DNA from: Clostridia bacterium
Lineage (GTDB): Bacteria > Bacillota > Clostridia > TANB77 > CAG-508
DNA: 41,606 nucleotides
Direction: 5' to 3'
NCBI GenBank assembly: GCA_017404025.1
Contig: JAFRDD010000051.1
Location: forward strand, 1-41,606
Positions 18,533-41,482 of the stretch are shown here, piece after piece. The position numbers and the translations under genes are program-made. Under the pieces are notes generated by a model. That model had not been told where the DNA came from and searched no databases. It was given only the letters and a program-made list of their open reading frames with translations. Numbering within the stretch: position 1 is the stretch's first letter; each line of letters opens with the position of its first letter.

Positions 18533-20437
18533 TTAATAAAGTCTGATTTCAATTCCCTTTTCACGGGCTTTCTTCATCTTTCCAGTATTGGAATCCAAAG
18601 AATTGGTAAATACAATCTGAACTTCTTTCCAAGAACCAGTCATTCTATATTCAGGATGCTTAGCAAGAAAATCTCCCTTGGAAAGATAATCATTAGGTTC
18701 ACCAGTAAGAATCACAGGAATTTGATCTCCAAGATTTTTCTTAGTTTCAATAGCAACCTGACGTTCCTGGTCAACAGTCTTTCCAATTGCATTCATAATC
18801 TTCTGAACCTTAATCATCTCAGGGGAATTATCATTGAAACACCAGTTATAAGAAACACCAGGGAGGGAAGTCCAATCCTCAGAACCAGGTTCAATCATAA
18901 ACTTGACAATCTGTTCTGCTGCCTTTTCTCCACACATGTTGAATGCACAGGAAATAATGATATCCTTGATGGTCATTTTAGTAAGGTAATCATTGAATGC
19001 CTTAGCAGCATTAACACCAGATTTACCACCCAGACCACGATTAATATCTACAGGCTGAATAAGAAGAATGTTATCAGGAACCTCCTTAGGTTCAATACCA
19101 AAGAATTCATCTCCCTGGCATTCAATCTTGACGAAATCAAAAATCTTTTCAGCAGCCGCAGGTCCAATTGAAGGAATTCCAAGTGAACGAGCAGATGCCA
19201 AGAACTTATTCTTTGTAATTTCTTCAGGAGAAAGATTCTTATAAAGGTGAACACCATCAATAGTACAATCAGTGGTATCAATACAGATATTCTTTTCATC
19301 AAAGGCAGAAGTATCTGTAATCTTGTAGATGAAAGGAATAATATCACCAGCCAAGGAAAGAATTACCTTGGTTCCCTTTGAAATTTTATTCTCAAGAACA
19401 TATCCATAATTGTGGGCAGAAGCCTTAGTAATTTGCTTACCATCCATAATCACAGGATTTACAATAATAACTGGAGTATATTCACCGGTCTTATTAGAAA
19501 GTTGCCACTTAATGTCAACAATCTCAGTTTCCTGAAGCATTGGGGCAAACTTAACAGCCACACAGTCCTTAGGACGATGTTCAATTATTCCGATGTTACT
19601 TTCACGGAATTCATCCTGAGGTTTGAAAACAATACCGTCAAGAGCAAACGGACAGTCCTCAGAACGATATTCATTAAAATCATTATAGAGTTTCTCAAAT
19701 TCCTCAGAAGTAATTTCAGAATTAATAGTAAAGAAATACTTAGGAGAATCAGGGAAATTGAATTCATTCCAATCAATATCAGCATAACCGCTTCCATCAT
19801 CAAGTTTGATTCTGATGTCATAAATGACAATTGAAAGGTCATTCAGCATTTCCTGATATTGGGCATCCTCAGTATAATCTCTGTTAAGAATTCCGCTAAC
19901 AAAAGAACGAGGATTAACAAACTCAGAATATTTCTGTTCAAAAATGAACTTGTCAATCAGAACCTCTCCGCGCAGAACATAACCAATATTTGAATTCTGG
20001 TCATTGATTGCCTTTACATTTGGCATAACCTTATTAATAAGGTGCTTGTAAAGGTCCTTGCCCAATTCTCCGTCTCCACGTGAGGAAATACTTTTTACTT
20101 TCTTTTCTTCAATGACAGCCTCAAATGAACAACCATCAAACTTAGGAGTAACAATAAACTTGTTAGCTCCATTCCTATTAATATATTTGTTAACTTCATT
20201 AAGATAATCAGCAAAATTAATGTTTCCGCTGTTATCTTCCTTTATCTGAACCTTAGCAAGAGAACCCATAAGGAACGGATGATTAACAGTGTAAGAAGGA
20301 TTTTTCTTAGCACCGATGTAGGACTTATTTTCAAGACCGAGTTTCTTTTCAAGCTCGTCAAATTCAAAGTCATCCATGATAGGCTCTCCGTTGTAGTAAG
20401 CTTCTTTTGCTTTGTTGTAGAGTTCTAAATCAGTCAT
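18533..20437 (-). CDS. ligA: NAD+-dependent DNA ligase
   Basis: 634 residues, slightly short for LigA (about 670). The adenylation domain shows the catalytic Lys99 in KFDG, SRGDGELGKD (motif around 119-128), RGEV, NPRSFVSGILN and DGIVFKPQD. A helix-hairpin-helix segment (SIGPAAAEKI) and a C-terminal BRCT-like part with GSWKEVQIVFT follow. The four-Cys zinc finger normally between the OB fold and HhH region appears missing: only two Cys remain in a shortened stretch. It seals nicks using NAD+ as AMP donor, so it ties phage replication to the NAD pool that other genes here appear to supply. Base composition is less AT-rich (about 40% GC in a sampled line against 22-30% nearby). An early-type promoter lies directly upstream. 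Confidence 0.93.
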   Translation of the reverse strand: MTDLELYNKAKEAYYNGEPIMDDFEFDELEKKLGLENKSYIGAKKNPSYTVNHPFLMGSLAKVQIKEDNSGNINFADYLNEVNKYINRNGANKFIVTPKFDGCSFEAVIEEKKVKSISSRGDGELGKDLYKHLINKVMPNVKAINDQNSNIGYVLRGEVLIDKFIFEQKYSEFVNPRSFVSGILNRDYTEDAQYQEMLNDLSIVIYDIRIKLDDGSGYADIDWNEFNFPDSPKYFFTINSEITSEEFEKLYNDFNEYRSEDCPFALDGIVFKPQDEFRESNIGIIEHRPKDCVAVKFAPMLQETEIVDIKWQLSNKTGEYTPVIIVNPVIMDGKQITKASAHNYGYVLENKISKGTKVILSLAGDIIPFIYKITDTSAFDEKNICIDTTDCTIDGVHLYKNLSPEEITKNKFLASARSLGIPSIGPAAAEKIFDFVKIECQGDEFFGIEPKEVPDNILLIQPVDINRGLGGKSGVNAAKAFNDYLTKMTIKDIIISCAFNMCGEKAAEQIVKFMIEPGSEDWTSLPGVSYNWCFNDNSPEMIKVQKIMNAIGKTVDQERQVAIETKKNLGDQIPVILTGEPNDYLSKGDFLAKHPEYRMTGSWKEVQIVFTNSLDSNTGKMKKAREKGIEIRLY

Positions 20438-20463
20438 AATTTCTTTAAAATTAATTACAAATT

Positions 20464-20491
20464 AATATAGAAAGAAATGTTATAAATTCAA
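20464..20491 (-). promoter_or_regulatory. Early-type promoter of the ligase operon
   Basis: Minus-strand TTGAATTT and CTATATT start 21 bases apart, with the CTATATT about 27 bases before the ligase ATG. The TTGAATTT box overlaps the TGA stop of the preceding gene. Confidence 0.65.
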
Positions 20492-20799
20492 ATATATCTG
20501 TAAAAAGTTATTGTATAATAGAAACTAGAACCTATTATAAAGGAAGATACAGATTGAACTTCCCAACCAGTGTAATAAGTGAATAATGTAAGTACTTTAC
20601 TAAAATTATCTACAACAGTAAATGTATCATTTGTTTTATTGACTTTATCAAGTTCTTCTTCAGATACACCAAAATCAGATCTTAGATATTCATAAAATAG
20701 TTGTTTTACTGTCATAGGTTTATGAATAAGATCTATAGGTGGCTTTGTAGTAACCACCTTATAGATCTTTGTTCTTGGTCTATTTGTCCTTATTTTCAT
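20488..20799 (-). CDS. Unknown protein, 103 aa
   Basis: Basic N-terminus (KIRTNRPRTKIYK), an acidic helix in the middle and a hydrophobic, aromatic C-terminus (YYTGWEVQSVSSFIIGSSFYYTITFY) that looks like paired beta-strands. Its ATG overlaps the stop of the DUF458 gene by 4 bases. Its stop codon lies inside the ligase promoter. No family recognised. Confidence 0.68.
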   Translation of the reverse strand: MKIRTNRPRTKIYKVVTTKPPIDLIHKPMTVKQLFYEYLRSDFGVSEEELDKVNKTNDTFTVVDNFSKVLTLFTYYTGWEVQSVSSFIIGSSFYYTITFYRYI

Positions 20800-21296
20800 T
20801 TTCTCTTAACTTCCCAGTCAGCATATGTAGTAAACAATGCACCAAGAGTTTTCCATCTACACTCAAATCCTTCTCCCTCAACCCAACCTCTTGCAGCATC
20901 AAATACTTCATTAGACTTATTCTTCTGCTTCTGACCAGGATTAGGATTAATGTCTATATCAACATATTTTATCTTTACTCCGTTTTCACGTAATGACTTT
21001 GCAATGTTTATAGACTCTTCAACTTCCTTAAGAAGTCTTTCAGCTCTCTGTTCCTTCTTATATCTTGGAACATTCCATTTGCTAGAAATACAGTGTGCAC
21101 CATGACCATGTTCTCCATCGCCTCTATCATACATAGCAATAACAGTGCAGAACTTTGTCTTTGAGCCTTTGCTTTGAGAGTCAGTTGCAACCATGACATC
21201 AATGTTGTCATGTGTCAAATAATAATCTCTAACGTAATCTATTACATTAGAAATCTTTTCCCCTCCGTACTTTCTAAAATCAAAAATCTCTACCAT
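20796..21296 (-). CDS. RNase-H-like DUF458 (YkuK family) protein
   Basis: 166 residues matching the DUF458 pattern as I know it: VMVATDSQSKG (first acidic residue at D39), a strand with TVIAMYDRGDGEHGHG, a charged helix AERLLKEVEESINIAKSL, then VDIDINPNPGQKQKNKS and a GWVEGEGFE motif near the C-terminus. The family has an RNase-H fold and is predicted to be a nuclease; its biology is poorly known. It is in an operon with small unknown genes downstream of an early-type promoter, overlapping the next gene by 4 bases. Confidence 0.8.
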   Translation of the reverse strand: MVEIFDFRKYGGEKISNVIDYVRDYYLTHDNIDVMVATDSQSKGSKTKFCTVIAMYDRGDGEHGHGAHCISSKWNVPRYKKEQRAERLLKEVEESINIAKSLRENGVKIKYVDIDINPNPGQKQKNKSNEVFDAARGWVEGEGFECRWKTLGALFTTYADWEVKRK

Positions 21297-21300
21297 TTCA

Positions 21301-21594
21301 TTAATTAATTATTTTAAGTTCAACCTCGTGAACTATTGTATTTATTTGTTTTGCCGTTGGATATGCTGTTCCATCTGGATTGTAATCCCAACCGTATGTA
21401 GTATATCCTTTATTATAAAAATCAACAATATGCTTCTCTAACATATCAGCAGCCTTTCTTGCAGCATTTTTTGTTGGATAAATTTTCGCTTTCCAAATGT
21501 CATCAGTCCACCCAGCATATTTACCGAATGTTTTAACATAACGAGGTTTCTCTTCAACTACCCCGTTAATCATTACTTCAATAATTGCATGCAT
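21301..21594 (-). CDS. Unknown protein, 97 aa
   Basis: Compact alpha/beta protein: beta-hairpin at the start, a WKAKIYPTKNAARKAADML helix typical of small phage proteins that read like a strand-helix unit, then a Tyr/Gly-rich region. No metal or catalytic motif is visible. Second gene of the operon behind the promoter at 21785-21812; 4 bases separate it from the DUF458 gene. Confidence 0.68.
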   Translation of the reverse strand: MHAIIEVMINGVVEEKPRYVKTFGKYAGWTDDIWKAKIYPTKNAARKAADMLEKHIVDFYNKGYTTYGWDYNPDGTAYPTAKQINTIVHEVELKIIN

Positions 21595-21596
21595 AA

Positions 21597-21755
21597 TTAA
21601 GCAAAAAATCCGAAAGTAACAATCAAACCAAAAAACATAATAGAGGTCTGCTTACAATTCTTATGATAACTTGTAAGCTTATGAATGCCTGATAGAATAA
21701 AATTCTTATCAAACTCTACAGAAATTGCTGAATTTCCATTGACAAATGTTTTCAT
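21597..21755 (-). CDS. Small membrane protein, 52 aa
   Basis: First gene after an early-type promoter. The soluble N-terminal part (MKTFVNGNSAISVEF) is followed by a hydrophobic C-terminal helix (IMFFGLIVTFGFFA) that should insert in a membrane. It ends 2 bases before the ATG of the 97-residue gene. Short size makes this less sure, but promoter position and tight spacing support it. Confidence 0.55.
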   Translation of the reverse strand: MKTFVNGNSAISVEFDKNFILSGIHKLTSYHKNCKQTSIMFFGLIVTFGFFA

Positions 21756-21784
21756 AATAAATGCTTTTAATGTTTTACAAAATC

Positions 21785-21812
21785 AATATAGTATTAAAAT
21801 AGTAAAATTCAA
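21785..21812 (-). promoter_or_regulatory. Early-type promoter of the DUF458 operon
   Basis: Minus-strand TTGAATTT and CTATATT start 21 bases apart, about 30 bases before the ATG of the 52-residue membrane protein. On the plus strand the next 60 bases (TTGAATATAT, then TTATATT) may form a weaker divergent promoter for the gene at 21879. Confidence 0.65.
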
Positions 21813-21878
21813 AATAAATTGAATATATATATGCATTTTTTCTATTATATTATATAAAATGTTAAACTAATTTCAGCT

Positions 21879-22094
21879 ATGACCGTGATAATTTTAATAA
21901 TATTAGCAACAATAATCATTTATTGGGTTAATGAATATATGAACATAGATGTATATAATACTATATACATTGGACCAAATGATGAGCAAGTAGTTGTTAT
22001 TCATAAGACATTATTCACAGTAACATTATCATATATTGCTGAAGACCCTGAAACAATTCTATTGATTGATTTTATAACAAGATATCATAAATAA
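21879..22094 (+). CDS. Small single-span membrane protein, 71 aa
   Basis: One N-terminal transmembrane helix (VIILIILATIIIYWV) followed by about 50 residues of beta-like soluble domain with acidic residues. First gene of a plus-strand group that continues with the nuclease gene 4 bases later. No family recognised. Confidence 0.65.
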   Translation: MTVIILIILATIIIYWVNEYMNIDVYNTIYIGPNDEQVVVIHKTLFTVTLSYIAEDPETILLIDFITRYHK

Positions 22095-22098
22095 AGAT

Positions 22099-22926
22099 AT
22101 GGCAGATATTACATTTTTTAAAGACATTGATAAAAGTTTGAAAACTTTATCTATTTCTGCAACTCTTGGATTGATTGCTAAACCAGTTGACCAAGAAAGA
22201 ATGCTTGAAAATACTTACAATAAGCATTATGATAATCCAGAATCTCAATATTATCATATGTCAAAGGAAGAAATAAAAGCAGTGTGGGAAGCGAAAGGTG
22301 CAGCATCAAGACAGTATGGTTCATTACTTGATGATTATATTGGAGCACGTTTAACTGGCACAGATGCAGATATGGAGATGTATAAACTTGATAATGACAT
22401 TGAAGGAGATGAAAGATTAAAAGGACTTGTTTCTTCATTTGATAATTTCTATTCATTATTGATGAAGTCAGGTGATATGGAATTTATAGCAAGAGAAAAG
22501 ACTATTTATTATAAAGTAGGTGACTATTATATTAAAGGCCGTTTTGATGCTTTATTTAGAAATAAAAGAACTGGTAAGTGGGTAATAATTGATTGGAAAT
22601 CAAGTAAGAGTATTGATTATTCAAATAAGTGGGAGAAATTACTTGGGCCTGCTAAGCAGTATGATAATTGTAATCATATAACCTATACTATGCAAGGTTA
22701 TTTTTATAAGACAGCATTAATTTATTCTGAATATCTTCCAGCAGGAACAACTGAAGATGATGTTGAATTTTTAATTGTACAGTTACCTGGATTTGAATTA
22801 GAAGAAGGAAGAAATTTCAAGATACATAAACCAGCATTCAAATATGATAAAGAATTTATGGATAAGATATTTGATTTTGCTATAAAGAAAAATATGCTGC
22901 TTGAAAGTAATGGACAGTCCAATTGA
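22099..22926 (+). CDS. PD-(D/E)XK nuclease (RecB/Cas4-like exonuclease)
   Basis: 275 residues. The core motifs read REKT (E133), GRFD (D150) and IDWKSSK (D165, K167), followed by a Gln-Tyr helix (TMQGYFYKTAL), the usual RecB-type motif order. The N-terminal helical part includes GAASRQYGSLLDDYI, which looks like the helix placed before the core in phage RecB-like exonucleases. Likely role: 5' or 3' DNA end processing in replication or recombination. A 28-residue ORF overlaps its last 17 bases. No Cys cluster of the Cas4 type is seen. Confidence 0.82.
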   Translation: MADITFFKDIDKSLKTLSISATLGLIAKPVDQERMLENTYNKHYDNPESQYYHMSKEEIKAVWEAKGAASRQYGSLLDDYIGARLTGTDADMEMYKLDNDIEGDERLKGLVSSFDNFYSLLMKSGDMEFIAREKTIYYKVGDYYIKGRFDALFRNKRTGKWVIIDWKSSKSIDYSNKWEKLLGPAKQYDNCNHITYTMQGYFYKTALIYSEYLPAGTTEDDVEFLIVQLPGFELEEGRNFKIHKPAFKYDKEFMDKIFDFAIKKNMLLESNGQSN

Positions 22927-23800: not shown

Positions 23801-23804
23801 TATG

Positions 23805-23840
23805 AAATGTAGGTTCTTATGAATCTACATTTTTTATTTT
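23805..23840 (+). terminator. Rho-independent terminator after the HAD gene
   Basis: Twelve-bp stem from AAATGTAGGTTC to GAATCTACATTT (one G-T pair) with a 4-base loop and a long T-rich tail. The tail merges into the late-type box that follows. Confidence 0.85.
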
Positions 23841-23848
23841 TATATATA
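23837..23848 (+). promoter_or_regulatory. Late-type promoter box for the capsid-leader protein operon
   Basis: TTTTTATATATA ends 18 bases before the ATG at 23867. It overlaps the T-tract of the preceding terminator. Late timing fits proteins that would be packed into the head. Confidence 0.5.
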
Positions 23849-23866
23849 ATTTATTTTTATGATTAC

Positions 23867-24295
23867 ATGAAACCACTTAAAGAATATTTATTAAAAGAAA
23901 ATAAAAAGGATATACCTGATGTAGTATATCATGCAACAATAAAGCAAAGATTAAGTGATATAAAGAAATACGGATTAGGTGGTAAAATTCCTAAGAAAAG
24001 ATTCTGGGATTATGAAGGAACTGAATATGAACATATAAAACAAGGATTTTTTGTTGATGTTAATCCAGAAAATGCCTACTATTATGTTGAAAATTCAGAT
24101 GAAATTTGGGATGCATATGAAGATTTTGATTCTTCTGATATTATATTATTTAGTATAAAAACAAAAGATTTAGATTTGTCAAAATTTCATATTGATTCAA
24201 ATGATGATTCAAATGAAGATGACCCTCATTCATATTTTTATGATGGAGTAGTTCCATTTGAAAAATTAACAAAAGAAAGTACAAAAGAATATTAA
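23867..24295 (+). CDS. ADP-ribosyltransferase-like protein with capsid-targeting-like leader
   Basis: 142 residues from the ATG at 23867. I chose this start over an ATG 48 bases upstream that lies in the terminator, because it gives MKPLKEYLLKE, nearly the same N-terminus as the next gene. The leader resembles T4 internal-protein and Alt leaders, which are cut after [L/I]-x-E (here L-K-E). The body reads VVYHATIKQRLSDIKKYGL (19-37), FFVDVNPENAYYYV (61-74) and VVPFEKL (128-134): the order seen in small ADP-ribosyltransferase-fold proteins of phages and bacteria, where His of YHAT binds NAD+. If correct it would modify host targets using NAD+, like T4 Alt. Fold call is by eye only. Confidence 0.55.
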   Translation: MKPLKEYLLKENKKDIPDVVYHATIKQRLSDIKKYGLGGKIPKKRFWDYEGTEYEHIKQGFFVDVNPENAYYYVENSDEIWDAYEDFDSSDIILFSIKTKDLDLSKFHIDSNDDSNEDDPHSYFYDGVVPFEKLTKESTKEY

Positions 24296-24297
24296 TT

Positions 24298-27067: not shown

Positions 27068-27697
27068 TTAAATTGAGGATGTATACTTACTACGTTTCAC
27101 TTGATTTTCAATAATACCTTTTACATTATTAAATGATATAGGAGTATAATGATTATTATCAATACCAACATCATATTGAAAAGGTAATAAATATGAAAGT
27201 CTGCTCAAATCAGGACTTGTTCCTGGATGCTCCTTATTTGAATGAACATGGCCAAATAACTGCCAACTTGGTTTATCTTTAAATATTCCATCAAACGTAA
27301 GCATAGGAAAATGATTTAAATAAATTTTTTGTCCGTCTACACAGATGTTAAGTTGTGCAATAATCATTTCAAATCCTTCCTCAATATTTCCTTCACACAT
27401 TAACTTATAATCATGATTTCCATGAATAAGATATATATGACCGTTTAATCTACTTCTAAATTCCCAGAATCTATTAATATTGCCAAACATAAAATCTCCC
27501 AGATGAAATACTATGTCATCAGGCTTTACAACAGAATTCCAGTTCTTTATAAGTGCCTCATTCATTTCATCAACATCAGCATACGGTCTCATTGCATACT
27601 TAATTATATTTGCATGATTAAAATGAGTATCACTTGTAAAGAATATGTTATTCTTTAAAGTAGTAAATTGCATTATATGTGTTTCACATTTAAACAT
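27068..27697 (-). CDS. Calcineurin-like metallophosphoesterase
   Basis: 209 residues with the complete metal motif series: SDTHF (D23, H25), LGDF (67-68), GNHD (93-96), LNHFP and FGHVHS. The SDTHFNHANIIKYAMRP start is the form common in phage and bacterial phosphoesterases of unknown substrate. An alternative start at Met9 (MQFTTLKNN) is possible. It is the last gene of the early-type operon that carries the NADAR protein, 3 bases after it, so nucleotide or cyclic-nucleotide products related to NAD/ADP-ribose turnover are conceivable substrates. That link is inference. Confidence 0.85.
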   Translation of the reverse strand: MFKCETHIMQFTTLKNNIFFTSDTHFNHANIIKYAMRPYADVDEMNEALIKNWNSVVKPDDIVFHLGDFMFGNINRFWEFRSRLNGHIYLIHGNHDYKLMCEGNIEEGFEMIIAQLNICVDGQKIYLNHFPMLTFDGIFKDKPSWQLFGHVHSNKEHPGTSPDLSRLSYLLPFQYDVGIDNNHYTPISFNNVKGIIENQVKRSKYTSSI

Positions 27698-27700: not shown

Positions 27701-28246
27701 TTATTTTTCCTCTAATTCTAAATCATCAATTAATTTATCTAATTCAATGCATTTTATTCTTACTGCATCAAGAATTTTGCCAAGTGCATTTCTACCCCAT
27801 TCAGATTCATTATGTAGAAGTGCATCATTTTCATTAAATCCAATTCCCCAGATTCTATCATAATAAGCTGCTTCAACAAAATGTTTGCCATCATATTCAG
27901 GATTTATTAACTGCTTTCTTAAATCCTTATTTTGTAGGAATTTTGCTGTTACTGCTTTTGTCATATAATATACTCTTTCTCTATCCCAAGCAGAATCAGA
28001 ATAATTCTTTACTTGTCTTCCAAGCTTTCTTGCTTCTTCTGGTGTTTTAGCATCAAGTATCTTATTAGCTGTTTCTGTATCTAAGAAAAACTTTGCTTTA
28101 AACCACATAAACATCTGCTCAGAAGATGTAAAATAAATTTCTTCTCCTGGTCTTGAGTCTGGATATTCAAACTTTATCTTACATTTTGTAAAATTACAAA
28201 ATGGATTTTCTTTCCAGAAAAATATGTATTTATCAGTTATTATCAT
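27701..28246 (-). CDS. NADAR (YbiA-like) domain protein
   Basis: 181 residues showing the family landmarks in order: FFWKENPFCNF (9-19), YFTSSEQMFMWFKAKFF (38-54), ILDAKTPEEARKLGRQV (63-79), WDRERVYYM, AKFLQNKDLRKQL, EAAYYDRIWGIGF (125-137) and GRNALGKIL (151-159). NADAR proteins act on N-glycosidic bonds of ADP-ribose or related nucleotides; some are reported to remove ADP-ribose from guanine in DNA as antitoxins to DarT-type toxins. Here it may protect the phage from ADP-ribosylating defences or clean up products of its own transferase. Its ATG overlaps the previous stop by 4 bases. Confidence 0.88.
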   Translation of the reverse strand: MIITDKYIFFWKENPFCNFTKCKIKFEYPDSRPGEEIYFTSSEQMFMWFKAKFFLDTETANKILDAKTPEEARKLGRQVKNYSDSAWDRERVYYMTKAVTAKFLQNKDLRKQLINPEYDGKHFVEAAYYDRIWGIGFNENDALLHNESEWGRNALGKILDAVRIKCIELDKLIDDLELEEK

Positions 28247-30054: not shown

Positions 30055-31248
30055 TTATTTGTATGTTATAGGGTCCAAAATACTTTTTGCATATTTAAGT
30101 GTAACTTTATATTTAGTTACATTTTGTATAGGGAGTTCAAACATTGCTTTTGTCATTAAATCTTCAATTATCATCCTAAGGCCTCTTGCGCCAAGTTTGC
30201 TTTCTATAGCTCTATCAACAATATAATCATATACTTTAGGTTCAAACTTAAGATTAATTCCATCAAGTGATAATAATTTCTGATATTGTTTTATTACTGA
30301 ATTTTTTGGCTCAGTCAATATTTTTCTTAAAGCATCTTTATCTAATTCATTCATATATGTGATTACTGGTAAACGCCCAATAAGTTCAGGAATCAAACCA
30401 AATGATTTAAGATCTAATGGTGATACATGTTTAAGTGGATTTTCTTCATTAAAAGATTTTTCTTCTTTATTTGTATTGAATCCAATTGCATGAACATTAT
30501 AACGAGCTTCAATCTTCTTATCAATACCTTCAAATGCGCCACCGCAAATAAAAAGAATATTTTTTGTATTTACATATACAAGTGGCATATCAGGATGCTT
30601 TCTACCGCCAAGAGGGGGTACTCCTACAACACTACCTTCTATGATCTTAAGAAGAGCCTGTTGTACACCTTCACCAGAGACATCTCTTGTAATTGAAGGA
30701 TTAGCACTTTTACGACCAATCTTATCTATTTCATCAATAAATATAATGCCTTGTTCAGCTCTATCAACATCATAATCAGCTGCTTGAAGCAATCTTACAA
30801 GAATAGTTTCAACATCATCACCTACATAACCTGCTTGTGTCAATGAAGTACAGTCAACAATAGTAAATGGAACATCAAGCATTTTTGCAATTGTCTTTGC
30901 AATTAATGTCTTACCTGTTCCAGTATTACCTATCATGATACAGTTGGATTTTTCAATATCTACATCATCAATTACATTTTGACTAGAAATTCTCTTATAA
31001 TGATTATATACAGCAACAGATATTCTTTCTTTTGCTGCATCTTGTCCAATTACATATTGATCAAGGAATGCTTTTATTTCGGTTGGTTTTGGAATATCAG
31101 ATATACTTTTCTTAAATGCTTTAGATTTATTTTCTTCCAAATATTTCTTAGCAAGATTAGCACATTCTGGACAAATATACCCATTATCTCCTGATAACAT
31201 TAAAGAAGTTAATGTTTCAGGTTTTCCACAAAAACTACAATATCTCAT
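30055..31248 (-). CDS. clpX: ClpX ATP-dependent unfoldase, apparently complete
   Basis: 397 residues against about 410-420 for bacterial ClpX. The N-terminal zinc-binding domain has C4, C7, C26, C29. The AAA+ core has Walker A GNTGTGKT (107-114), pore loop GYVG (140-143), Walker B IIFIDE (168-173), the RKH loop (216-218), and sensor-2 GARGLR. The IGF tripeptide that docks into ClpP is present (255-257, HAIGFNT). So the protein could partner host ClpP and redirect proteolysis, or work alone as an unfoldase in virion assembly or takeover. A clpP gene is not seen in the window. Transcribed from its own early-type promoter, followed by a 72-residue gene. Confidence 0.95.
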
Positions 31249-33058: not shown

Positions 33059-33439
33059 TTAACAACCGCCGCGACTAGGTGGTGAATAACAACCACCTGA
33101 AGAATATCTCCTGCTTGGACTGCAACTTGATGATGAAGTTCTGCTTCTGCTTGGTAATGATGGTGAACCTTTTGACTTTTTTTGATATTTATTTGCAATA
33201 TAATCACTTGTTTCAATAAAATCTTTTATCTTTCCAAGTAATGTTTTATCTTCTTTATCAAGTGCAATTAATATATCTTTCCAAGAAATATCACCAATAT
33301 CTACAGTAAGAGGTGGTCTTGTATTAATTTTTATATCATCATTAAGATGAAGTTTCTCTGATAAAAATATATTATTGTTATCTTTCTTAGCAATATTATT
33401 GCCTATAGATTCGGTTATTCTTGTTAATATATCTTTCAT
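33059..33439 (-). CDS. Leader-bearing protein with Ser/Arg/Gly/Cys tail, 126 aa
   Basis: Residues 1-22 (LTRITESIGNNIAKKDNN) resemble the start of the neighbouring 132-residue protein. Residues 23-37 then contain IFLSEKLHLNDDIKI, the same EKLHLN core as the leader proteins at 24.7-26.2 kb, with L-S-E as a possible cut site. The middle is helical. The last 35 residues are low-complexity Ser, Arg, Pro and Gly with Cys in SSCS, GGCY and the final RGGC. A late-type box lies upstream. It may be a head-internal protein, or a substrate of the radical SAM enzyme encoded upstream; both are inferences. Confidence 0.68.
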   Translation of the reverse strand: MKDILTRITESIGNNIAKKDNNNIFLSEKLHLNDDIKINTRPPLTVDIGDISWKDILIALDKEDKTLLGKIKDFIETSDYIANKYQKKSKGSPSLPSRSRTSSSSCSPSRRYSSGGCYSPPSRGGC

Positions 33440-33470: not shown

Positions 33471-33869
33471 TTAACACCCTCCACCATTAGATGAACCACA
33501 TCCACTATCATTTGACCAATTTGAAGAACCACATCCTCCACTATACATCCAACCTGATGTATTACCACAACCAGATTCTAATACATAACGAGGTTTTATT
33601 TTCTTCTTTTGTTTCTTTTGTTCTTCTAATTCTAAATTTTCTATTAATTCATCATATACTGATGATTGAACATTATTAGTTGAATATTTTTGTTCATACC
33701 ATAGCATAAGCATAGTTGCTAATACACTATTAGTTTTCTTTGCATCTTCAAGTATCTCTAAAAATGTTGGATTAGCATATTGCTTGTTAAGTTCATCAAT
33801 AAGTTGATTATTTTGTTTAAGACGAGCAATTGTATTGCCAATATTTTTTGTTATTGATGTAAGATCCAT
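33471..33869 (-). CDS. Cys/Gly/Ser-tailed protein, 132 aa
   Basis: The N-terminus (LTSITKNIGNTIARLKQNNQ) aligns with that of the 126-residue neighbour, so they are paralogues with different middles. Residues 20-95 are helical and charged. The last about 33 residues are almost only Gly, Ser, Asn and Cys, with Cys in SGCG, GGCG, SGCG and a final GGGC. Such a leader-plus-Cys-rich-tail layout recalls precursors of ribosomally made, modified peptides, and a radical SAM gene lies two genes upstream. It could instead be a disulfide-linked virion or envelope protein. Its ATG shares one base with the preceding stop. Confidence 0.68.
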   Translation of the reverse strand: MDLTSITKNIGNTIARLKQNNQLIDELNKQYANPTFLEILEDAKKTNSVLATMLMLWYEQKYSTNNVQSSVYDELIENLELEEQKKQKKKIKPRYVLESGCGNTSGWMYSGGCGSSNWSNDSGCGSSNGGGC

Positions 33870-34180: not shown

Positions 34181-34191
34181 TTTTATTATAT

Positions 34192-34204
34192 GATATATTT
34201 ATAT
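34192..34204 (-). promoter_or_regulatory. Late-type promoter box (TATAAATATATC)
   Basis: Exact T4 late consensus TATAAATA on the minus strand, ending 15 bases before the ATG at 34180. It overlaps the last codons of the radical SAM gene. Confidence 0.5.
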
Positions 34205-35086
34205 CCAATAAGGAGCAATTTCACCGTTTTCATGAAGTACTGCAAAGAAATATTTTTTAGCAAACATCCATCTTGTACACATTTTTATAAAATCCCAAAT
34301 ATTTGCTTTCTGATGATTTGTTCTATAGAAACAACTTCTTTTGATATAAAGATGTCCATCAAAAGGTTTTCCATTATATACCCAATCATATGTATTTGTA
34401 TATTCTGTCTTACATCCCCAAGAAAATGGATTATTCATTTTGATTTTTAACATCTTTGGAATATCAATATATACATCATCAGCATCAAACATTTCACATA
34501 TCTTAATATTCTTAAAACCAAGCTGATTGAACAAACATACATTTCTTATAATATCATACTTTGTTTTAAAGTAAGGTTTAATGATGTTTATGCTACCTAT
34601 AATTTTTTCACTTCCACAATGTTTAATTATCTCTTTATAGAAATCATTTCTAAAAAAGATAGTTTTAGAATTTCTTATTCTGTCACTTATTACTTCTGAA
34701 TAATGCTGAAGAGATATTTGAATTGAATCACATTTATCAAGTATATTAAAAAATTGTTCTTTCTTATCATAGCAAATATTAGGAACACTTGTAAATATTA
34801 AAATATTTAAAGAAGTATTTTCTTTAATCCAATTTACAAGAGTTTCTAATTCATCAATGAACACAAATGGTTCACCTCCAGATATAGAAATATTTTTTAC
34901 TTTATCTTTATAAATATTAAGAGTTTTTATTATGGCATCTATATCTGGTTTCTTTGTATTTACGCCAACATTCGTTTTATCAATACAAAATGAACATTTA
35001 TTTGGACACGCTTTAGTGAAATGAATTAAAATTTCATTTCCATTTGGATTATGATCACATGTATTTACTCCGTATCTTATCTTCAT
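34199..35086 (-). CDS. Radical SAM enzyme of unknown substrate
   Basis: 295 residues. The [4Fe-4S] motif is CPNKCSFC (C27, C31, C34) and the SAM-binding SGGEP is at 69-73, the standard order of the radical SAM barrel. Further Cys residues near the C-terminus (WGC, RSC, MC) might ligate a second cluster, but no clear SPASM pattern is seen. It does not look like QueE or NrdG, the usual phage radical SAM proteins. Downstream genes encode two Cys-tailed paralogues that could be its substrates. The enzyme would act in the cytoplasm. Activity class is secure; substrate is unknown. Confidence 0.88.
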   Translation of the reverse strand: MKIRYGVNTCDHNPNGNEILIHFTKACPNKCSFCIDKTNVGVNTKKPDIDAIIKTLNIYKDKVKNISISGGEPFVFIDELETLVNWIKENTSLNILIFTSVPNICYDKKEQFFNILDKCDSIQISLQHYSEVISDRIRNSKTIFFRNDFYKEIIKHCGSEKIIGSINIIKPYFKTKYDIIRNVCLFNQLGFKNIKICEMFDADDVYIDIPKMLKIKMNNPFSWGCKTEYTNTYDWVYNGKPFDGHLYIKRSCFYRTNHQKANIWDFIKMCTRWMFAKKYFFAVLHENGEIAPYWI

Positions 35087-35088
35087 AT

Positions 35089-35517: not shown

Positions 35518-35518
35518 A

Positions 35519-35800: not shown

Positions 35801-35801
35801 A

Positions 35802-36428
35802 TTATTTACTCCATTTAATAAACCCATATATACAATTCATAATCCAGAATATATATTGAGCTATCATAAATATATTTCCAATACTTATCCAAAGAATAAG
35901 AGTAGCAATATCAACAACTAACCACATTATCCATTGTTCTCTATATCTAAACATCAGCATAAATTGTGCAATAAATGCTGGTACTGTTGAAACAGAATCC
36001 AAAAATGGCTGAGGATCATTTGTTTTTAATAGTACTACATATAATAATATAGTACTTATAAAGAAAACAATACAACATAAGAATATTTGAAATGAAGTAA
36101 GTTTCCTTGCCTCAACTTCTTTATCATCTTTATTATAATGTTTAAGCCACATAAAAAGAGCTATAGTTGTTGTAACAACATAAAATATATTTTCAACTAA
36201 CTCTCCCCATAGATGCTGTTGAAAGATGATAACAATATATGTAAACATTTGAATGTAAGCAAAGAAATAGAATGACATTTTTCTTTGCGAACATAGGACA
36301 ACATTTATACACCCACTAAGTCCACAGATAAATGAAAGTAGACCATCTTTAGTGAACATATAGCAAACTATTTGAATCAATATACCAAATAGCATGAATA
36401 TCCAATCAAATGTTTTTAGTTTACTCAT
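35802..36428 (-). CDS. pnuC: PnuC nicotinamide riboside transporter
   Basis: 208 residues with about seven hydrophobic helices. The segments AYIQMFTYIVIIFQ, VTTTIALFMWLKH and the late EQWIMWLVVDIATLILWIS match the PnuC pattern, including the Trp-x-x-Trp helix and the cytoplasmic positive stretch between helices. PnuC lets nicotinamide riboside cross the inner membrane by facilitated diffusion, trapped by phosphorylation through an enzyme such as the NadR-like protein three-to-four genes upstream. Thiamine-type relatives (PnuT) are hard to exclude by eye, but the nearby NadR supports riboside. KVP40 and some other large phages also carry pnuC with NAD-salvage genes. Confidence 0.88.
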   Translation of the reverse strand: MSKLKTFDWIFMLFGILIQIVCYMFTKDGLLSFICGLSGCINVVLCSQRKMSFYFFAYIQMFTYIVIIFQQHLWGELVENIFYVVTTTIALFMWLKHYNKDDKEVEARKLTSFQIFLCCIVFFISTILLYVVLLKTNDPQPFLDSVSTVPAFIAQFMLMFRYREQWIMWLVVDIATLILWISIGNIFMIAQYIFWIMNCIYGFIKWSK

Positions 36429-36633
36429 AAATTATTTCAGTATTTATTGTATAAAGTTTTTCTGTATCGTATGTTTGTTTTATTCCTACTATAAAATCTT
36501 CTTTATCATCAAAAAATCTAACTTCATGGACACTAAGTCCATTTTTATATGATAAATCTGAAGTAGTAATAGAAATCTTATTATATTTAAACTTTTCTAA
36601 TATTTTAATTATATCATTATATGTTATTTCCAT
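36421..36633 (-). CDS. Unknown protein, 70 aa
   Basis: Small acidic alpha/beta protein: helix NDIIKILEKFK, then strands ending VHEVRFFDDKEDFIVGIKQ. It overlaps pnuC by 8 bases and the SLOG gene by 17, so it is translationally bound to both. No family recognised. Confidence 0.62.
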   Translation of the reverse strand: MEITYNDIIKILEKFKYNKISITTSDLSYKNGLSVHEVRFFDDKEDFIVGIKQTYDTEKLYTINTEIIYE

Positions 36634-37225
36634 ATCTTACAATTTTATAAGGTATTCCTTTTTCTTTACACAAATCAATAGTATGTTTAGTTCCTTTACT
36701 CTTTCCATCCCAGAAACAAATAGCTGCAGAAGCAATATCTACCATTTCTTTATTTCTCCTATATCCTGCACTTTTACCATACTTATCCCAGTCTGCTGGA
36801 TGAGAATCAATATTATATCCTCTTTCTTTACCATATTGTTCTCCTAAAGAATCAGCTCCTTTTGCAGCTCCTGAAATAATTACTATATCAACTCTGTTAT
36901 CAATATTAGAAAGATAATAGTCACACTTCTTCTTCAATAACTCGTAGTCATTAAAATCTCTACCGCCAGCAATTATGACTTTAAATTCAGGTGACCCAAT
37001 ATTTAATTCTTTAAGATACACTTTAGTAGTATGAGATTCAGTGAAACCTGGAAAAATCTTTCTGTCTATATCAATTAACTTAATAGACTTTAATACATTC
37101 TCAGCTTCTTCTTTATTTAGATATACTGTATCAGAATATAATCCATTTTCATAATTTCCACTTGTATTGCACCAGTCTTCATCATTAACTACATAAGCTG
37201 TGTACCATATTTGATATCCTTTCAT
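36617..37225 (-). CDS. SLOG-family (DUF2493/YspA-like) protein with N-terminal extension
   Basis: The C-terminal 120 residues carry the DUF2493 signature: FKVIIAGGRDFNDY (81-94), IISGAAKGADSLGEQYG (116-132), HPADWDKYGKSAGYRRN (142-158) and CFWDGKSKGTKHTI (170-183). This Rossmann-like SLOG group is predicted to bind nucleotide or ADP-ribose-type ligands. Residues 1-80 form an added domain starting KGYQIWYTAYVV that I cannot assign. Placed between pnuC and the NadR-like gene, it could sense or process a NAD-derived metabolite. Ligand unproven. Confidence 0.85.
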   Translation of the reverse strand: MKGYQIWYTAYVVNDEDWCNTSGNYENGLYSDTVYLNKEEAENVLKSIKLIDIDRKIFPGFTESHTTKVYLKELNIGSPEFKVIIAGGRDFNDYELLKKKCDYYLSNIDNRVDIVIISGAAKGADSLGEQYGKERGYNIDSHPADWDKYGKSAGYRRNKEMVDIASAAICFWDGKSKGTKHTIDLCKEKGIPYKIVRYGNNI

Positions 37226-37247
37226 AATTGTTAATAATTAAAATGGC

Positions 37248-37451: not shown

Positions 37452-37465
37452 ATCTCATATTAATT

Positions 37466-37633
37466 TTATACACTAACTTGTCTTACTTCATAAGTGATAT
37501 AAGGCCTTTGATTTTTAAAGTTTAATTCATTAGCTAATTTTTTAGCTGATAATTCATCATCAAATTGTTTGATAACTCTATCACCACCATCAGGGTATGT
37601 ATCAAAATATCGTTCTACATTGTACTTAGTCAT
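37466..37633 (-). CDS. Small protein, 55 aa
   Basis: Reads MTKYNVERYFDTYPDGG, then a helix with DDELSAKKLANELN and a strand ending YEVRQVSV. This strand-helix-strand layout recurs in small phage proteins. It lies between the NadR-like and zinc-ribbon genes in the same orientation with 14- and 27-base gaps. Function unknown. Confidence 0.58.
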   Translation of the reverse strand: MTKYNVERYFDTYPDGGDRVIKQFDDELSAKKLANELNFKNQRPYITYEVRQVSV

Positions 37634-37660
37634 AATTAATCTTTTATTAAATGTTTTATA

Positions 37661-38773
37661 TTATCCTTCAATCAAACTATTAATATAATTTTTTACTTCA
37701 TTAAAATTATCAAGAAAACTTCCATTCAAATAAGTCTTGCTTACTTCAGGATAGAATTCATTAACAAGTTTTTGGAGTTTATCAAAATTCTTTTCTCTTT
37801 CACTCATACTTGATTGTTTCATATATCTACATCCATCATCAACAAAGTTTTTGGATGGTGGAAAGATAAAGATATGATCCCACTTGTATTCATAATTATC
37901 ATTATATTCCTTTGCAGTTTCATATAAGCATCTGTAATCATCTTCAAACAAATAGATGTCAGGATCTTCTACATATGCCTTCGCATACATTAAAGTAACT
38001 GTATTATCAGTATCTGAAATGAATATTCCATTCTTTGACTTTCTTCTTTCAGTATCACAATACTCTAACTGTCCAGAAAGAAATGCATCAAAATCAGCAT
38101 ATGTCAAATCCTTATCAGTTATTTTATCAGCTGCCATATAATCCCTGCCATATTCAGGAGCATAAGGAATATCAAAATAATGTGCAATATCTCTTACAAG
38201 AGTAGATTTTCCTTCAGATGCTGTGCCAAGTATAAGAATATTCTTACAAAGAAAAGGTTTGAAAGGTGCAGTAATCTTATTCCAATATTTGATTGGATTC
38301 TTTCTAATTTGTGTACCGGAAACAGGATTTGTTTTATCAATAAGAATTACATTTGCTGGATAATCATTATTAGGAATGTAAATATTTTCAAGACTCTTTT
38401 TATAAAATGCTTCAGCTACATACCAAGTAATCTTGTAGTCTTCAGTATTGATATAAATTTCGTCTTTTAAAATCTGTTTCATAACTTCACTACTCCATAC
38501 TTCCCAGTTATGATTACTCATACTTTCATCAAGACCAAGTTCAGTATCATTAATCTTTCTTACTCTAATTTGCTCATCTTCTCTGAAGAAATCATAAATC
38601 AAAGTATATCTTTCATCAAGATTAAGATTAATTTCCCATCCACGAGGCTCATTATCATAACCACAGACAATAACATAACAGATGTCATTTTCTTTCTTTG
38701 CTCTCATAATGACATCCATATGTCCTTGATGAAGTGGACAATAACCGCCAAAACAAATACCAATACTTTTCAT
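37661..38773 (-). CDS. nadR: NadR-like NMN adenylyltransferase / ribosylnicotinamide kinase
   Basis: 370 residues with two enzyme domains. The N-terminal nucleotidyltransferase has GGYCPLHQGH (9-18, the G-x-x-x-P-x-H-x-G-H type site) and SGTQIR (152-157). The C-terminal kinase has a P-loop GTASEGKST (183-191) and EYGRDY (207-212), typical of the NadR kinase. The N-terminal repressor domain of enterobacterial NadR is missing, so this is a pure enzyme: nicotinamide riboside to NMN to NAD+. Together with PnuC it completes a two-step salvage route. It is the first clearly enzymatic gene of the block reaching down to pnuC. Confidence 0.93.
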   Translation of the reverse strand: MKSIGICFGGYCPLHQGHMDVIMRAKKENDICYVIVCGYDNEPRGWEINLNLDERYTLIYDFFREDEQIRVRKINDTELGLDESMSNHNWEVWSSEVMKQILKDEIYINTEDYKITWYVAEAFYKKSLENIYIPNNDYPANVILIDKTNPVSGTQIRKNPIKYWNKITAPFKPFLCKNILILGTASEGKSTLVRDIAHYFDIPYAPEYGRDYMAADKITDKDLTYADFDAFLSGQLEYCDTERRKSKNGIFISDTDNTVTLMYAKAYVEDPDIYLFEDDYRCLYETAKEYNDNYEYKWDHIFIFPPSKNFVDDGCRYMKQSSMSEREKNFDKLQKLVNEFYPEVSKTYLNGSFLDNFNEVKNYINSLIEG

Positions 38774-38799
38774 ATTAACTAATATAATAATTTCTAATT

Positions 38800-39015
38800 T
38801 TATTTTGAACTAATTAAATTATCATAATAAAGATTCCAAGTTAATCTATTTATTTCGTTTGCAATTTCTTTGGATACAACTACAAAATTTGCTGTAGCAT
38901 TTAAATGTCTTTTATCTACATCTTTTAATGATTCAGAAATATCGAATGTAATATCAGATAATTCAACAAAATCAGGTTCTATAACAAATTCACTATCTTT
39001 TTGTAATCGTAGCAT
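38800..39015 (-). CDS. Unknown protein, 71 aa
   Basis: Acidic start (EFVIEPDFVELSDITFD) followed by a mixed helix with NATANFVVVSKEIANEINRL. No family recognised. It follows the 136-residue gene by 2 bases and precedes nadR by about 26. Confidence 0.62.
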   Translation of the reverse strand: MLRLQKDSEFVIEPDFVELSDITFDISESLKDVDKRHLNATANFVVVSKEIANEINRLTWNLYYDNLISSK

Positions 39016-39017
39016 AA

Positions 39018-39428
39018 TTAATATAAATCTTCACTCATTAACATATTAAACTTATGTTCATCCTTTAATTGCTTATGTGTAGGATTTCCATTTTCATCAA
39101 CAGTATTTAATGGAATATCCATCCAAGATTTATCTAAAGCAGTATATTCATCAACTTGTCCTGCATTATAAGCAATTTCCATCCCTTTCCATCTGTCAAC
39201 AAATCTACCCTTACTTGTATAAAATCCTTGAGCTTCTTGGCTCATATCTAATGGGCAATCTTCTAATGTATAACCAAATCTTACATATATGTCATGATGA
39301 CGATATCCAATTTCAATATTATGTATATCATTAAAATCAGATGTTGAATATGATTGCTCTGCGTAAGGACGTGGGGATTTCCTTTTTACAGCAGCACATA
39401 GAATATACTCTTTAGAATTATCAATCAT
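39018..39428 (-). CDS. Unknown protein, 136 aa, coupled to the TonB receptor gene
   Basis: Soluble alpha/beta protein with a conserved-looking core: YILCAAVKRKSPRPYA, GYRHHDIYVRFGYTLED and GFYTSKGRFVDRWKGMEIAY. The His-His-Asp and Arg/Lys clusters might be a functional site, but I recognise no family beyond small phage proteins of similar look. Its ATG shares one base with the stop of the TonB-dependent receptor (TAATG), which places that receptor firmly inside the phage-type gene array. Confidence 0.7.
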   Translation of the reverse strand: MIDNSKEYILCAAVKRKSPRPYAEQSYSTSDFNDIHNIEIGYRHHDIYVRFGYTLEDCPLDMSQEAQGFYTSKGRFVDRWKGMEIAYNAGQVDEYTALDKSWMDIPLNTVDENGNPTHKQLKDEHKFNMLMSEDLY

Positions 39429-41482
39429 TAGAAATAAAATTTTAAATCAATAAAGAAATTAGTTCCAGCATCTCTAAACCAAAGTAAATCAGTTGCACCA
39501 ACAGCACAGTTATAATAATTTACTTTATTAAGAAGATTATTTACTCTTGCCCCAAATTCAATATTTCTCCATCTATAATTTCCGTAAAGATTGAAAGTAA
39601 GATGGTAAGGAATTTCCATTTCATTATTCTGGTCAAGATACATTTTAGAATGATAAAGATTGTTTACACCAATCTTCATATTATTATTCTTATAATATAA
39701 ATCATTATTAAGTGTATATGCAGGAGTAAGAATATGATATTTATTTACAAAGTTTTCAGAATTAACAATATTCTTGCTTGCACTACCATTAAGTGCATAA
39801 TGGAAACCACCAGCAAAATTCCAATCAACAGAAACTTCAATACCAGTACGATAAGAATTATTTGCAGTATCATGAAGTGGAAGCCCATTCAATCCATATT
39901 CTCCAGTTAAGATACGCTCATTCTTAAAATACATATAATATAGATTGACATTTGCTTCAATCTTATTTGTTGCAATAACATAACCACCTTCAACATCATA
40001 TGAACGTTCTGCTTTAGTTGTTGTTAATTCTCCTGGATAAAATTCATTTCCACCAAACATATCAGTTCTTGTAGGTTCACGAGAAACCTCGGCATATCTT
40101 ACATAGAACTTATTAGCATTGTCAAGATTATAATCTACATTGAATCCATAATTTATAAAATTCCATACTGTACCGGCGTCATTCTTATTATAAATGACAT
40201 CACTGTTAAGATGGTCAACATAATTGAAATCAACATACCTGTACTGTACATTAGCACCAAAGTTAAACTTATTTAATTTATAATTAGCTGACAAGAATAC
40301 ATTTCCATCATTCTTGTAACCAGTATTATCATAATATTCAGACGGATCAACATTCTTAAAATGAGAAGCAACTATGTCATTCATATAATGTTCCCTCTGA
40401 TACTTATAAATATTGGTACCAGCAGTAAGAGTAAGATTATTCAAATAAAACTTAGCAGCAGCATTTGCTCCATAAAGATAATGAGTAAGTCCATAGGAAT
40501 ATACAATATTTGTCTTATCCCAAGTAGGATCTTCAAACTTAATCATATAATTGTCCAAGTCCATATTGTACCAACCAGTCTGGTACTGAATATATGCAGA
40601 ACTTGTAAACAAAATATTGTCCTTCAACCAACCCTTATATTGAATCTTATTGATAGACTGAAACCATTCATCAATATCATCTGGAGAATCACCATTTGCT
40701 CGAGGATTAATTGTAAGTTCATTTAGAGTATTTCCAATCCATCCCTGGCCATTCCTATGTCTTCCATTCAAAGACATAAAATCAATACTATGTTTGTTAT
40801 TAAAGAAATACCCATATTTAACAGTAAAAGCTTGTGAATTATTAAAACTCCAATCTCTATATCCATCAGTCTGTTGCTGAGTAGCCTTTATATGAATTGC
40901 ATTTTTTCCAAAAAGACCAGAATTATATACAATACTTGTTTTATAAGTATTAAAACTACCTGCACCTACATAACCATAACTTTCAGTATCTTTAAGCAAA
41001 TCAATACTTTCAAGATTAATACTTCCACCACTTGAAGCAGTTCCATTGTTAGTACTTGAAGTTCCACGTTCAACCTTTACAGTATGAATACTTGAAAGAA
41101 GGTCAGGAGAATTAGCAAAATATGTTCCATAGTCTTCAGCTTCATTCCAAGGCATACCATCGAGAGTAACATTAATACGAGTCTGGTCAAGTCCACGAAT
41201 TCTAAAATAACCATAACCAAATTCAGTACCATTATCATTCATACTGAAAATACCTGGCATCTTTCTGAAAAGATGAGAAGGTTCCTGACCATAATTTTCA
41301 GATACAAGGTCAGCATGGTTCATCAATGAACCAATGTTGACAGTATTACGATAAAATGAAACAACAGATACAGAATCCAATACATCATACTTTACTGAAT
41401 TAGTATCTGCATAATTAAATGTTTGTCCTATAGCAGACAATGAAATAAAAAGTAAAACAATAAAACTAATAATTTTTTTCAT
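39428..41482 (-). CDS. TonB-dependent outer-membrane receptor
   Basis: 684 residues. N-terminal signal peptide MKKIISFIVLLFISLSAIGQ, a possible TonB box near DSVSVVSF (36-43), and a plug domain with HLFRKMPGIFSM, FRIRGLDQTRINVTLDGMPWNE and VERGTSSTNNGTASSGGSINLES. The remaining about 500 residues are alternating aromatic beta-strands of a 22-strand barrel, ending in Phe (DLKFYF) as needed for outer-membrane insertion. No SusC-type N-terminal domain. Such receptors import scarce large or charged nutrients using TonB energy. Position upstream of nadR and pnuC suggests a NAD precursor as substrate, which is inference. A receptor of this type in a phage is highly unusual. Confidence 0.93.
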   Translation of the reverse strand: MKKIISFIVLLFISLSAIGQTFNYADTNSVKYDVLDSVSVVSFYRNTVNIGSLMNHADLVSENYGQEPSHLFRKMPGIFSMNDNGTEFGYGYFRIRGLDQTRINVTLDGMPWNEAEDYGTYFANSPDLLSSIHTVKVERGTSSTNNGTASSGGSINLESIDLLKDTESYGYVGAGSFNTYKTSIVYNSGLFGKNAIHIKATQQQTDGYRDWSFNNSQAFTVKYGYFFNNKHSIDFMSLNGRHRNGQGWIGNTLNELTINPRANGDSPDDIDEWFQSINKIQYKGWLKDNILFTSSAYIQYQTGWYNMDLDNYMIKFEDPTWDKTNIVYSYGLTHYLYGANAAAKFYLNNLTLTAGTNIYKYQREHYMNDIVASHFKNVDPSEYYDNTGYKNDGNVFLSANYKLNKFNFGANVQYRYVDFNYVDHLNSDVIYNKNDAGTVWNFINYGFNVDYNLDNANKFYVRYAEVSREPTRTDMFGGNEFYPGELTTTKAERSYDVEGGYVIATNKIEANVNLYYMYFKNERILTGEYGLNGLPLHDTANNSYRTGIEVSVDWNFAGGFHYALNGSASKNIVNSENFVNKYHILTPAYTLNNDLYYKNNNMKIGVNNLYHSKMYLDQNNEMEIPYHLTFNLYGNYRWRNIEFGARVNNLLNKVNYYNCAVGATDLLWFRDAGTNFFIDLKFYF

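Follow-up and report, generated by a model that had tools for sequence, protein, structure and literature searches.

Phages are known that secure their own supply of nicotinamide adenine dinucleotide (NAD). Salvage of NAD+ of the KVP40 type is cited in PMC9723777 and PMC7824862, and phage NAD synthesis through NadV, NadM and NadR has been described in PMC9503650; statements on these and the other articles cited here refer to the portions of text available. In Haemophilus, nicotinamide riboside (NR) is likewise handled by PnuC and then by NadR (PMC4081464). Here we describe a stretch of 41,606 bases (the window), one contig of a 176-contig genome bin, which encodes proteins of the same NadR and PnuC families with their motifs intact and which adds to salvage of the KVP40 type an outer-membrane TonB-dependent receptor (TBDR). 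Whereas phage salvage by NadR and PnuC is already known, no earlier report was found of a receptor step tied to NAD: neither a TBDR assigned to NR nor a link between a phage TBDR and NadR was found in the open-licence literature, a search that did not extend to subscription papers. The phage NAD+/ADP-ribose networks of PMC9503650 and PMC7824862 share NADAR and NadR with the window and include YAcAr SLOG proteins in jumbo phages, but the available portions mention neither TonB nor PnuC. The available main text of three papers on Lak and huge phages (PMC6784885, PMC7162821 and PMC8346664) contains no reference to TonB, NAD or nicotinamide.

The TBDR, PnuC and NadR genes of the window probably specify a three-step salvage line that spans two membranes and serves a NAD precursor, most likely NR. 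The TBDR would be exported and placed in the outer membrane of the host, presumably a member of the Bacteroidota, where the host TonB machinery would drive NR into the periplasm. PnuC would pass NR over the inner membrane, and the two-domain NadR would convert it to nicotinamide mononucleotide (NMN) and on to NAD+, thereby trapping the precursor. A raised NAD supply over a long infection could support replication, including the NAD-dependent DNA ligase LigA, and could offset NAD-consuming defences. To our knowledge, no such NR receptor has been proposed before for any organism. If the proposal is correct, a phage can give its host a new outer-membrane importer, a metabolic takeover that reaches the cell surface, and can build its own nutrient uptake route over both host membranes. 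The proposal would also suggest a ligand for a TBDR family of the Bacteroidota, none having been found assigned to it, offer a testable answer to how NAD precursors pass the Bacteroidota outer membrane, and link megaphage gene content with NAD-based immunity.

Gene identities and origin of the DNA

The TBDR gene (39428-41482, minus strand) encodes 684 amino acids, and no further gene separates it from the contig end. Its barrel and plug domains scored 60.1 and 44.6 bits, respectively, over the curated Pfam cut-offs, and inspection by eye revealed an N terminus resembling a signal peptide and, near it, a stretch resembling a TonB box. The protein is predicted to be an outer-membrane receptor for NR or a close NAD precursor. 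NadR (37661-38773, minus strand, 370 amino acids) combines NMN adenylyltransferase and ribosylnicotinamide kinase domains (Pfam AAA_28, 77.9 bits; CTP_transf_like, 29.1 bits), is also matched in PHROG and NCBIfam, and retains the HxGH, SxTxxR and Walker A motifs. The motifs of both domains assign it to the two-domain NadR enzymes, its activity being predicted from sequence. Its best solved relative is NadR of Lactococcus lactis (6gye, E = 1.4e-47), and its TIGR01526 score of 199.7 was under the cut-off of 341.15, as were those of two tested NadRs from cellular operons.

The PnuC-family inner-membrane transporter (35802-36428, minus strand, 208 amino acids) scored 133 bits in Pfam and 121.4 bits against NCBIfam TIGR01528 (cut-off, 42.45), contains the WxxWxxxD motif and matched the NR transporter 4qtn at E = 2.2e-25, versus 9e-8 for the tested PnuC of a cellular operon. 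The TIGR01528 and 4qtn matches place it with PnuC proteins of the NR-transporter type, and NR transport is predicted, with the reservation that it carries Asp at a position where 4qtn has Asn, a difference that counts against the proposed salvage line.

A preliminary description of this DNA had named seven genes of NAD or ADP-ribose metabolism. Six of these (LigA, NADAR, PnuC, SLOG, two-domain NadR and TBDR) were confirmed by Pfam matches above curated cut-offs, and all six lie on the minus strand. From the TBDR (41482) through NadR, SLOG and PnuC to position 33059, the open reading frames (ORFs) follow closely on one another, never separated by more than 31 bases, which is compatible with one transcript; NADAR lies further along, past larger gaps.

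Judged from its genes, the window is phage DNA, a fragment of a Lak-like megaphage. The nearest named relatives of its NadR, TBDR and PnuC are proteins of Lak megaphages of Prevotella (50%, 42-44% and 48% identity, respectively), and SbcC- and SbcD-like proteins are further phage marks; one window protein gave weak T4-baseplate matches, below the cut-off. Stop codons over 55 window ORFs were TAA in 43 cases, TGA in 9 and TAG in 3. No close DNA relatives of positions 18533-41606 were found among phage records, and an Rfam scan of the window gave no match.

The bin is contaminated, a phage contig having been grouped with bacterial DNA. The sole TBDR match in the bin was the window's own, the TonB_C domain had no match in the bin, and at E 1e-10 no TBDR was found in any of 20 genomes of relatives of the bin organism. 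On these grounds, the bin organism is not taken to be the phage host, and the relatives of the window point to a host within the Bacteroidota.

Selection on the three genes was assessed against locus L007 (77-85% protein identity; L numbers denote loci). The ratio of nonsynonymous to synonymous substitution rates (dN/dS) was ∼0.26 for the TBDR and 0.17 for both NadR and PnuC, and values of ∼0.09 to 0.16 were obtained in four other phage TBDR pairs. TBDR, NadR and PnuC are under purifying selection. The absence of TonB_C and of another TBDR from the bin bacterium, the position of the TBDR at the contig end and the TBDR fragments in relatives might suggest bacterial genes stitched to a phage contig in assembly, or a non-functional passenger. 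Such an origin is extremely unlikely given that further phage contigs, as well as 15 Lak records, carry the same genes and that the genes are under purifying selection.

Linkage of TBDR, PnuC and NadR in phages and Bacteroidota

Partner genes were found by local hidden Markov model searches around each TBDR and then counted. A TBDR match was present in 22 phage records, of which five were examined as loci; three of the rest are contigs of 5-9 kb. All five named phage loci carry TBDR, NadR and PnuC. In three huge phages with TBDRs ∼31-33% identical to that of the window, the order is TBDR-PnuC-NadR; the trio genes abut or overlap in LR756502 and LR745206 (L005 and L006), and ORFs intervene in LR756501. 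A search of IMG/VR with the TBDR alignment alone yielded 43 loci, 18 with the order TBDR-PnuC-NadR, 14 with TBDR-NadR-PnuC and 6 with TBDR-NadR. The rest comprised one TBDR-PnuC locus (L020, in which the TBDR is a fragment), two with TBDR only (L039 and L049), one with PnuC upstream of the TBDR (L038) and one with PnuC on the opposite strand (L022). All three genes occur together in 33 of these loci (32 in the main orders plus L038). Among the best 80 of 298 cellular TBDR relatives, nearly all Bacteroidota by record title, NadR lay downstream of the TBDR in 68, with PnuC between them in 45 (45 TBDR-PnuC-NadR, 23 TBDR-NadR and 12 TBDR only).

Conservation across phages and chromosomes places this grouping beyond chance, and TBDR, NadR and PnuC form one system. 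The supply arm proposed in the preliminary description, including its outer-membrane step, is thus supported by co-occurrence of the three genes in phages and Bacteroidota chromosomes.

The TBDR of megaphage LR745206 belongs to the same family as that of the window and, together with that of Mar_Mega_1, is named SusC-like and read as serving carbohydrate uptake in PMC9723777, the available portion of which leaves PnuC and NadR unmentioned. A SusC-type carbohydrate importer is nevertheless hardly credible: the TBDR abuts PnuC and NadR in LR745206, and NCBIfam at E 0.001 gave no SusC/RagA model, only a weak match to MxcH, a SusD partner not having been searched for. TBDRs commonly serve as phage receptors, and the window TBDR might instead alter the cell surface, shielding or replacing the phage's own receptor or aiding a carrier-state host, apart from any part in NAD metabolism. 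This would leave the repeated linkage to NadR and PnuC in phages and chromosomes unexplained, and we regard it as highly improbable.

Several observations weigh against a dedicated salvage line. Near-duplicate loci are present in the sets (e.g. L009/L010, L035/L036 and L017/L019), so locus counts are not independent events. In the 80 cellular loci, 12 TBDRs stand alone and 23 have no PnuC match, PnuC is missing in 6 of the 43 IMG/VR loci, and the TBDR is a mere fragment in L020, L039 (at the contig end) and L049 (inside the contig). A distance of 5-6 kb separates the TBDR from NadR-PnuC in Lak phages. Neither NadR nor PnuC adjoins the cellular TBDRs that are closest to that of the window (L050-L054, 43-44%), and their genomes contain PnuC in all five cases and a full-length NadR in none. 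A reciprocal search from NadR gave 60 viral loci; within the fetched flanks, 58 of these have PnuC nearby, 25 have a TBDR, which in two cases is a fragment at the start of the contig, and 2 have neither. The NadR-PnuC cassette can therefore do without the TBDR, since 35 of the 60 show none in these flanks, 33 of the 60 having PnuC but no TBDR; in all, the window NadR and PnuC matched 355 and 739 of 50,697 phage records, respectively. Finally, in Haemophilus, NR, NMN and NAD reach the periplasm through porins, with no TBDR (PMC4081464), and because NR passes porins there, a TBDR is not needed everywhere. Lone TBDRs, TBDR-less cassettes and fragments would fit a receptor that is needed only under a tight outer membrane.

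Truncated TBDRs inside the viral contigs L020 and L049 are a sign of occasional loss of the receptor gene. L050-L054 are metagenome-assembled genomes of Bacteroidaceae, from ruminant guts by title, and phage-host exchange possibly lies behind their TBDRs.

Gene histories and candidate substrates

Trees were quick estimates with support from the Shimodaira-Hasegawa-like approximate likelihood ratio test (SH-aLRT) only, and long branches were flagged. Six near-duplicate phage rows were left out of the TBDR tree and of the plug comparison given below, and short TBDR and NadR rows were left out of the first tree set. In the TBDR tree, the window fell among 14 phage rows (support, 99), joined to five Bacteroidaceae TBDRs (SH-aLRT, 100), and the starred branches require the gene to have changed between phage and cell three times or more. 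The midpoint-rooted NadR tree comprised 20 of 68 cellular, 33 of 38 TBDR-phage and 23 of 35 TBDR-less rows. Here, the Lak-like NadRs were found within a 33-row set that includes 22 rows from TBDR-less phages (100), the NadRs of other TBDR phages grouped with the cellular operon, and one TBDR-less row (L218) fell on the cellular side. The closest PDB matches of a cellular-operon NadR were other NadRs, with that of L. lactis at 2.8e-12 only. Gene order agrees with the tree: members of the Lak-like set, and 27 of 32 new-contig loci with PnuC but no TBDR, have NadR ahead of PnuC, whereas PnuC precedes NadR in cells and in most other TBDR phages with both genes.

These two histories suggest two assemblies, in which some phages carry the bacterial operon and Lak-like phages, including that of the window, joined a related TBDR to an ordinary phage NadR-PnuC cassette. 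Either the TBDR came together with NadR and PnuC on more than one occasion or the partner genes were exchanged, and in both cases the functional tie is stronger. We lean slightly toward the view that huge phages possess a dedicated TonB-powered NR receptor in a line assembled twice, by operon capture and by addition of a TBDR to a NadR-PnuC cassette.

The Pnu family includes thiamine transporters (PMC7749635), and the TBDR might import thiamine or another vitamin together with a PnuT-like protein, NadR being nearby by chance. Twelve Bacteroidota genomes, 11 with a NadR-linked locus and one with a TBDR-only locus, bear on this point; because they were picked by this locus, they provide a contrast rather than a free sample. 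Matches to TBDRs and to the PnuC family in these genomes number at least 542 and 21, respectively, against one full-length NadR per genome. That sole NadR lay at this TBDR in 11 of the 12, and PnuC adjoined in 9. Two of the genomes contain a separate TBDR-Pnu pair without NadR (L150 and L151), each just under a thiamine pyrophosphate (TPP) riboswitch, a feature recognized as characteristic of thiamine transporters (PMC7749635 and PMC6281302). These thiamine TBDR-PnuT operons likewise set a TBDR beside a Pnu-family carrier, and their TBDRs are homologous to that of the window (378-379 bits to the TBDR alignment model), but they differ in having their own TPP riboswitch, no NadR and another plug signature. 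The signature in the window's family is NE.ED followed by YF.N (NDGED in L050; 16 sequences), whereas that of L150 and L151 is NNPESQ and YWVN (2 sequences). No TPP riboswitch was found at the gathering threshold in the 22 NadR-linked cellular loci scanned, among which L093, L105 and L124 offered <200 bases upstream, or in the window. With NadR linked in 68 of 80 cellular loci and the window PnuC close to 4qtn, a thiamine importer is very unlikely, and the sequence comparisons make NR the most likely substrate of the two.

A second Bacteroidota pair was also observed, in which a PnuC-family gene lies beside a stand-alone NadR-type kinase domain (L143, L144, L145, L146, L148 and L147). TPP riboswitches were absent from L143, L144, L145, L146 and L148; a third such riboswitch was present at the edge of L147, downstream of the Pnu/kinase-only pair.

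TBDRs usually take up larger ligands. The window TBDR might accordingly serve the same NadR/PnuC line with larger compounds derived from NAD and released by lysed neighbours (NMN, NAD+ or derivatives of ADP-ribose), which enzymes of the periplasm would cut down to NR ahead of PnuC. In Haemophilus, NAD and NMN are degraded to NR within the periplasm, upstream of the PnuC step (PMC4081464), and other phages have Macro, Nudix and PncB genes in the neighbourhood of the TBDR. However, the genes beside the trio in the window include no identified periplasmic nucleotidase, and the homologous thiamine TBDR-Pnu pair suggests that a ligand as small as a vitamin is sufficient. Uptake of a larger ligand is thus unlikely, and NR itself is preferred.

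Additional genes of NAD and ADP-ribose metabolism in the vicinity of the TBDR were tallied with phmmer from Pfam-checked queries at E 1e-4, a tally that includes several weak matches and has no matched control. With Nudix-only cells left out, such genes accompanied the TBDR in 11 of 80 cellular loci; among other phage loci the figure was 13 of 48. PncB was present in L025, L026, L031, L033 and L046, NadE- or PncA-like genes (some weak) in L022, L023, L026, L038 and L046, and macro domains in L020, L026, L032, L033 and L038; L005 has a Nudix gene, plus NadV-NadM 17-18 kb off. The phage loci concerned lie mostly outside the window's own TBDR group, a further point against the proposed salvage line, with the exception of L020, which has a PnuC of the window's group. 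Within that TBDR group, the only extra genes were SLOG (L007) and a nucleoside-deoxyribosyltransferase-like gene (L018).

L004 and L024 are phage NAD islands, with PncB, NadE, TBDR, PnuC, NadR and a gene for an isochorismatase-family protein, PncA-like by context, in ∼9 kb. Chromosomal islands join TBDR-NadR to NADAR and ADP-ribosylglycohydrolase: L062, L066 and L071 have these two with NadM/Nudix and NadV (KptA in L066 and L071), and the Chryseobacterium loci L095, L110 and L127 have them with SIR2 and KptA (macro in L095). Fewer extra genes were seen in the cells of L073, L091, L098, L100 and L122.

NADAR, SLOG, LigA and other neighbouring genes

The NADAR gene (27701-28246, minus strand; Pfam, 141.6 bits) lies ∼7.5 kb beyond PnuC on the same strand and encodes a YbiA-type glutamate form. 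The residues named for Phytophthora NADAR, E43/K50, R79/W89/R93 and E125/D130/W133 (PMC11543638), all have matches in the window protein by motif search, with equal spacing inside each group, and the match to 8bau was at E = 8.4e-16. The catalytic and ADP-ribose-contact residues and the Glu in the last strand assign it to the YbiA type, with activity predicted; phage gp30.3 NADARs have His in place of this Glu (PMC11125620).

The search for NADAR and YAcAr covered 19 of 48 phage records, namely those of >120 kb (at least 126 kb) other than L017 and L036. NADAR was found in 11 of the 19 and in all five named phages, figures that have no size-matched background and that fragments may lower. Because NADAR is common in phages, the window protein matching 700 phage records generally, a tie to the trio is possible only. 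A further contribution of NADAR may be to repair nucleic acid that has been ADP-ribosylated. The earlier suggestion that the phage reverses ADP-ribosylation thus stays plausible, with the motif residues kept and NADAR in 11 of 19 records; its setting of NAD-depleting defences comes from the literature.

The remaining genes do not track the trio. The YAcAr (YspA-type) SLOG gene (36617-37225, minus strand; PF10686, 59.9 bits) lies between NadR and PnuC, is optional, has relatives in L007 and L020, and was found in 2 of the 19 records. The LigA-type NAD-dependent DNA ligase (18533-20437, minus strand; Pfam adenylation domain, 63.7 bits, and OB domain, 53.4 bits; also PHROG) had a relative in the fetched flanks of 1 of 48 other phage loci and, as a replication gene, is not counted in the salvage set. 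The claimed ADP-ribosyltransferase (23867-24295, plus strand, within ORF 23819-24295) probably starts at 23867, judged from the 97% identical relative L161. Because it had no match in Pfam, PHROGs, NCBIfam or PADLOC, its label is unproven. Nine of 15 Lak records contain a relative, as does one IMG/VR contig, which came from a search that finds close relatives only. The leader ascribed to it is real insofar as neighbouring small proteins starting at 23867, 24298, 24687, 25177 and 25577 (plus strand), and L161, share it; we take it to resemble T4-type capsid-targeting leaders. A single system of all seven genes was rejected because SLOG, LigA and this candidate do not follow the trio, and of the co-occurrence expected in related phages only the TBDR-NadR-PnuC part held.

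Among other genes of the window, a small protein (39018-39428, minus strand; phrog_839, E = 1.4e-7), the first base of which is the last base of the TBDR stop codon, has relatives in L007, L020 and L045. A calcineurin-like phosphoesterase (27068-27697, minus strand; Pfam and PHROG) directly follows NADAR and has a weaker relative (29.7%) within a nucleoside 2-deoxyribosyltransferase-like-domain protein in L018; its membership of the system is doubtful. A ClpX-like phage protein with zinc finger and AAA domains in Pfam (30055-31248, minus strand) and a small phage protein with a papain-family protease domain by profile match (10161-10796, minus strand) were also identified.

A radical SAM protein (34199-35086, minus strand; Pfam) is encoded downstream of PnuC and has relatives in 20 of 49 phage loci, the window included. 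It is a recurrent neighbour, probably with a separate function. NCBIfam gave no listed model above cut-off for the radical SAM/small-protein set. Small proteins with Cys/Gly/Ser-rich tails ending in Cys, represented in the window at 33471-33869 and 33059-33439 (minus strand), lie near the radical SAM gene in 14 of the 20 loci (the window, L005, L006, L007, L009-L014, L018, L027, L029 and L037). The arrangement looks like a radical SAM maturase with precursors of the ribosomally synthesized and post-translationally modified peptide type, present in more than one group of TBDR phages.

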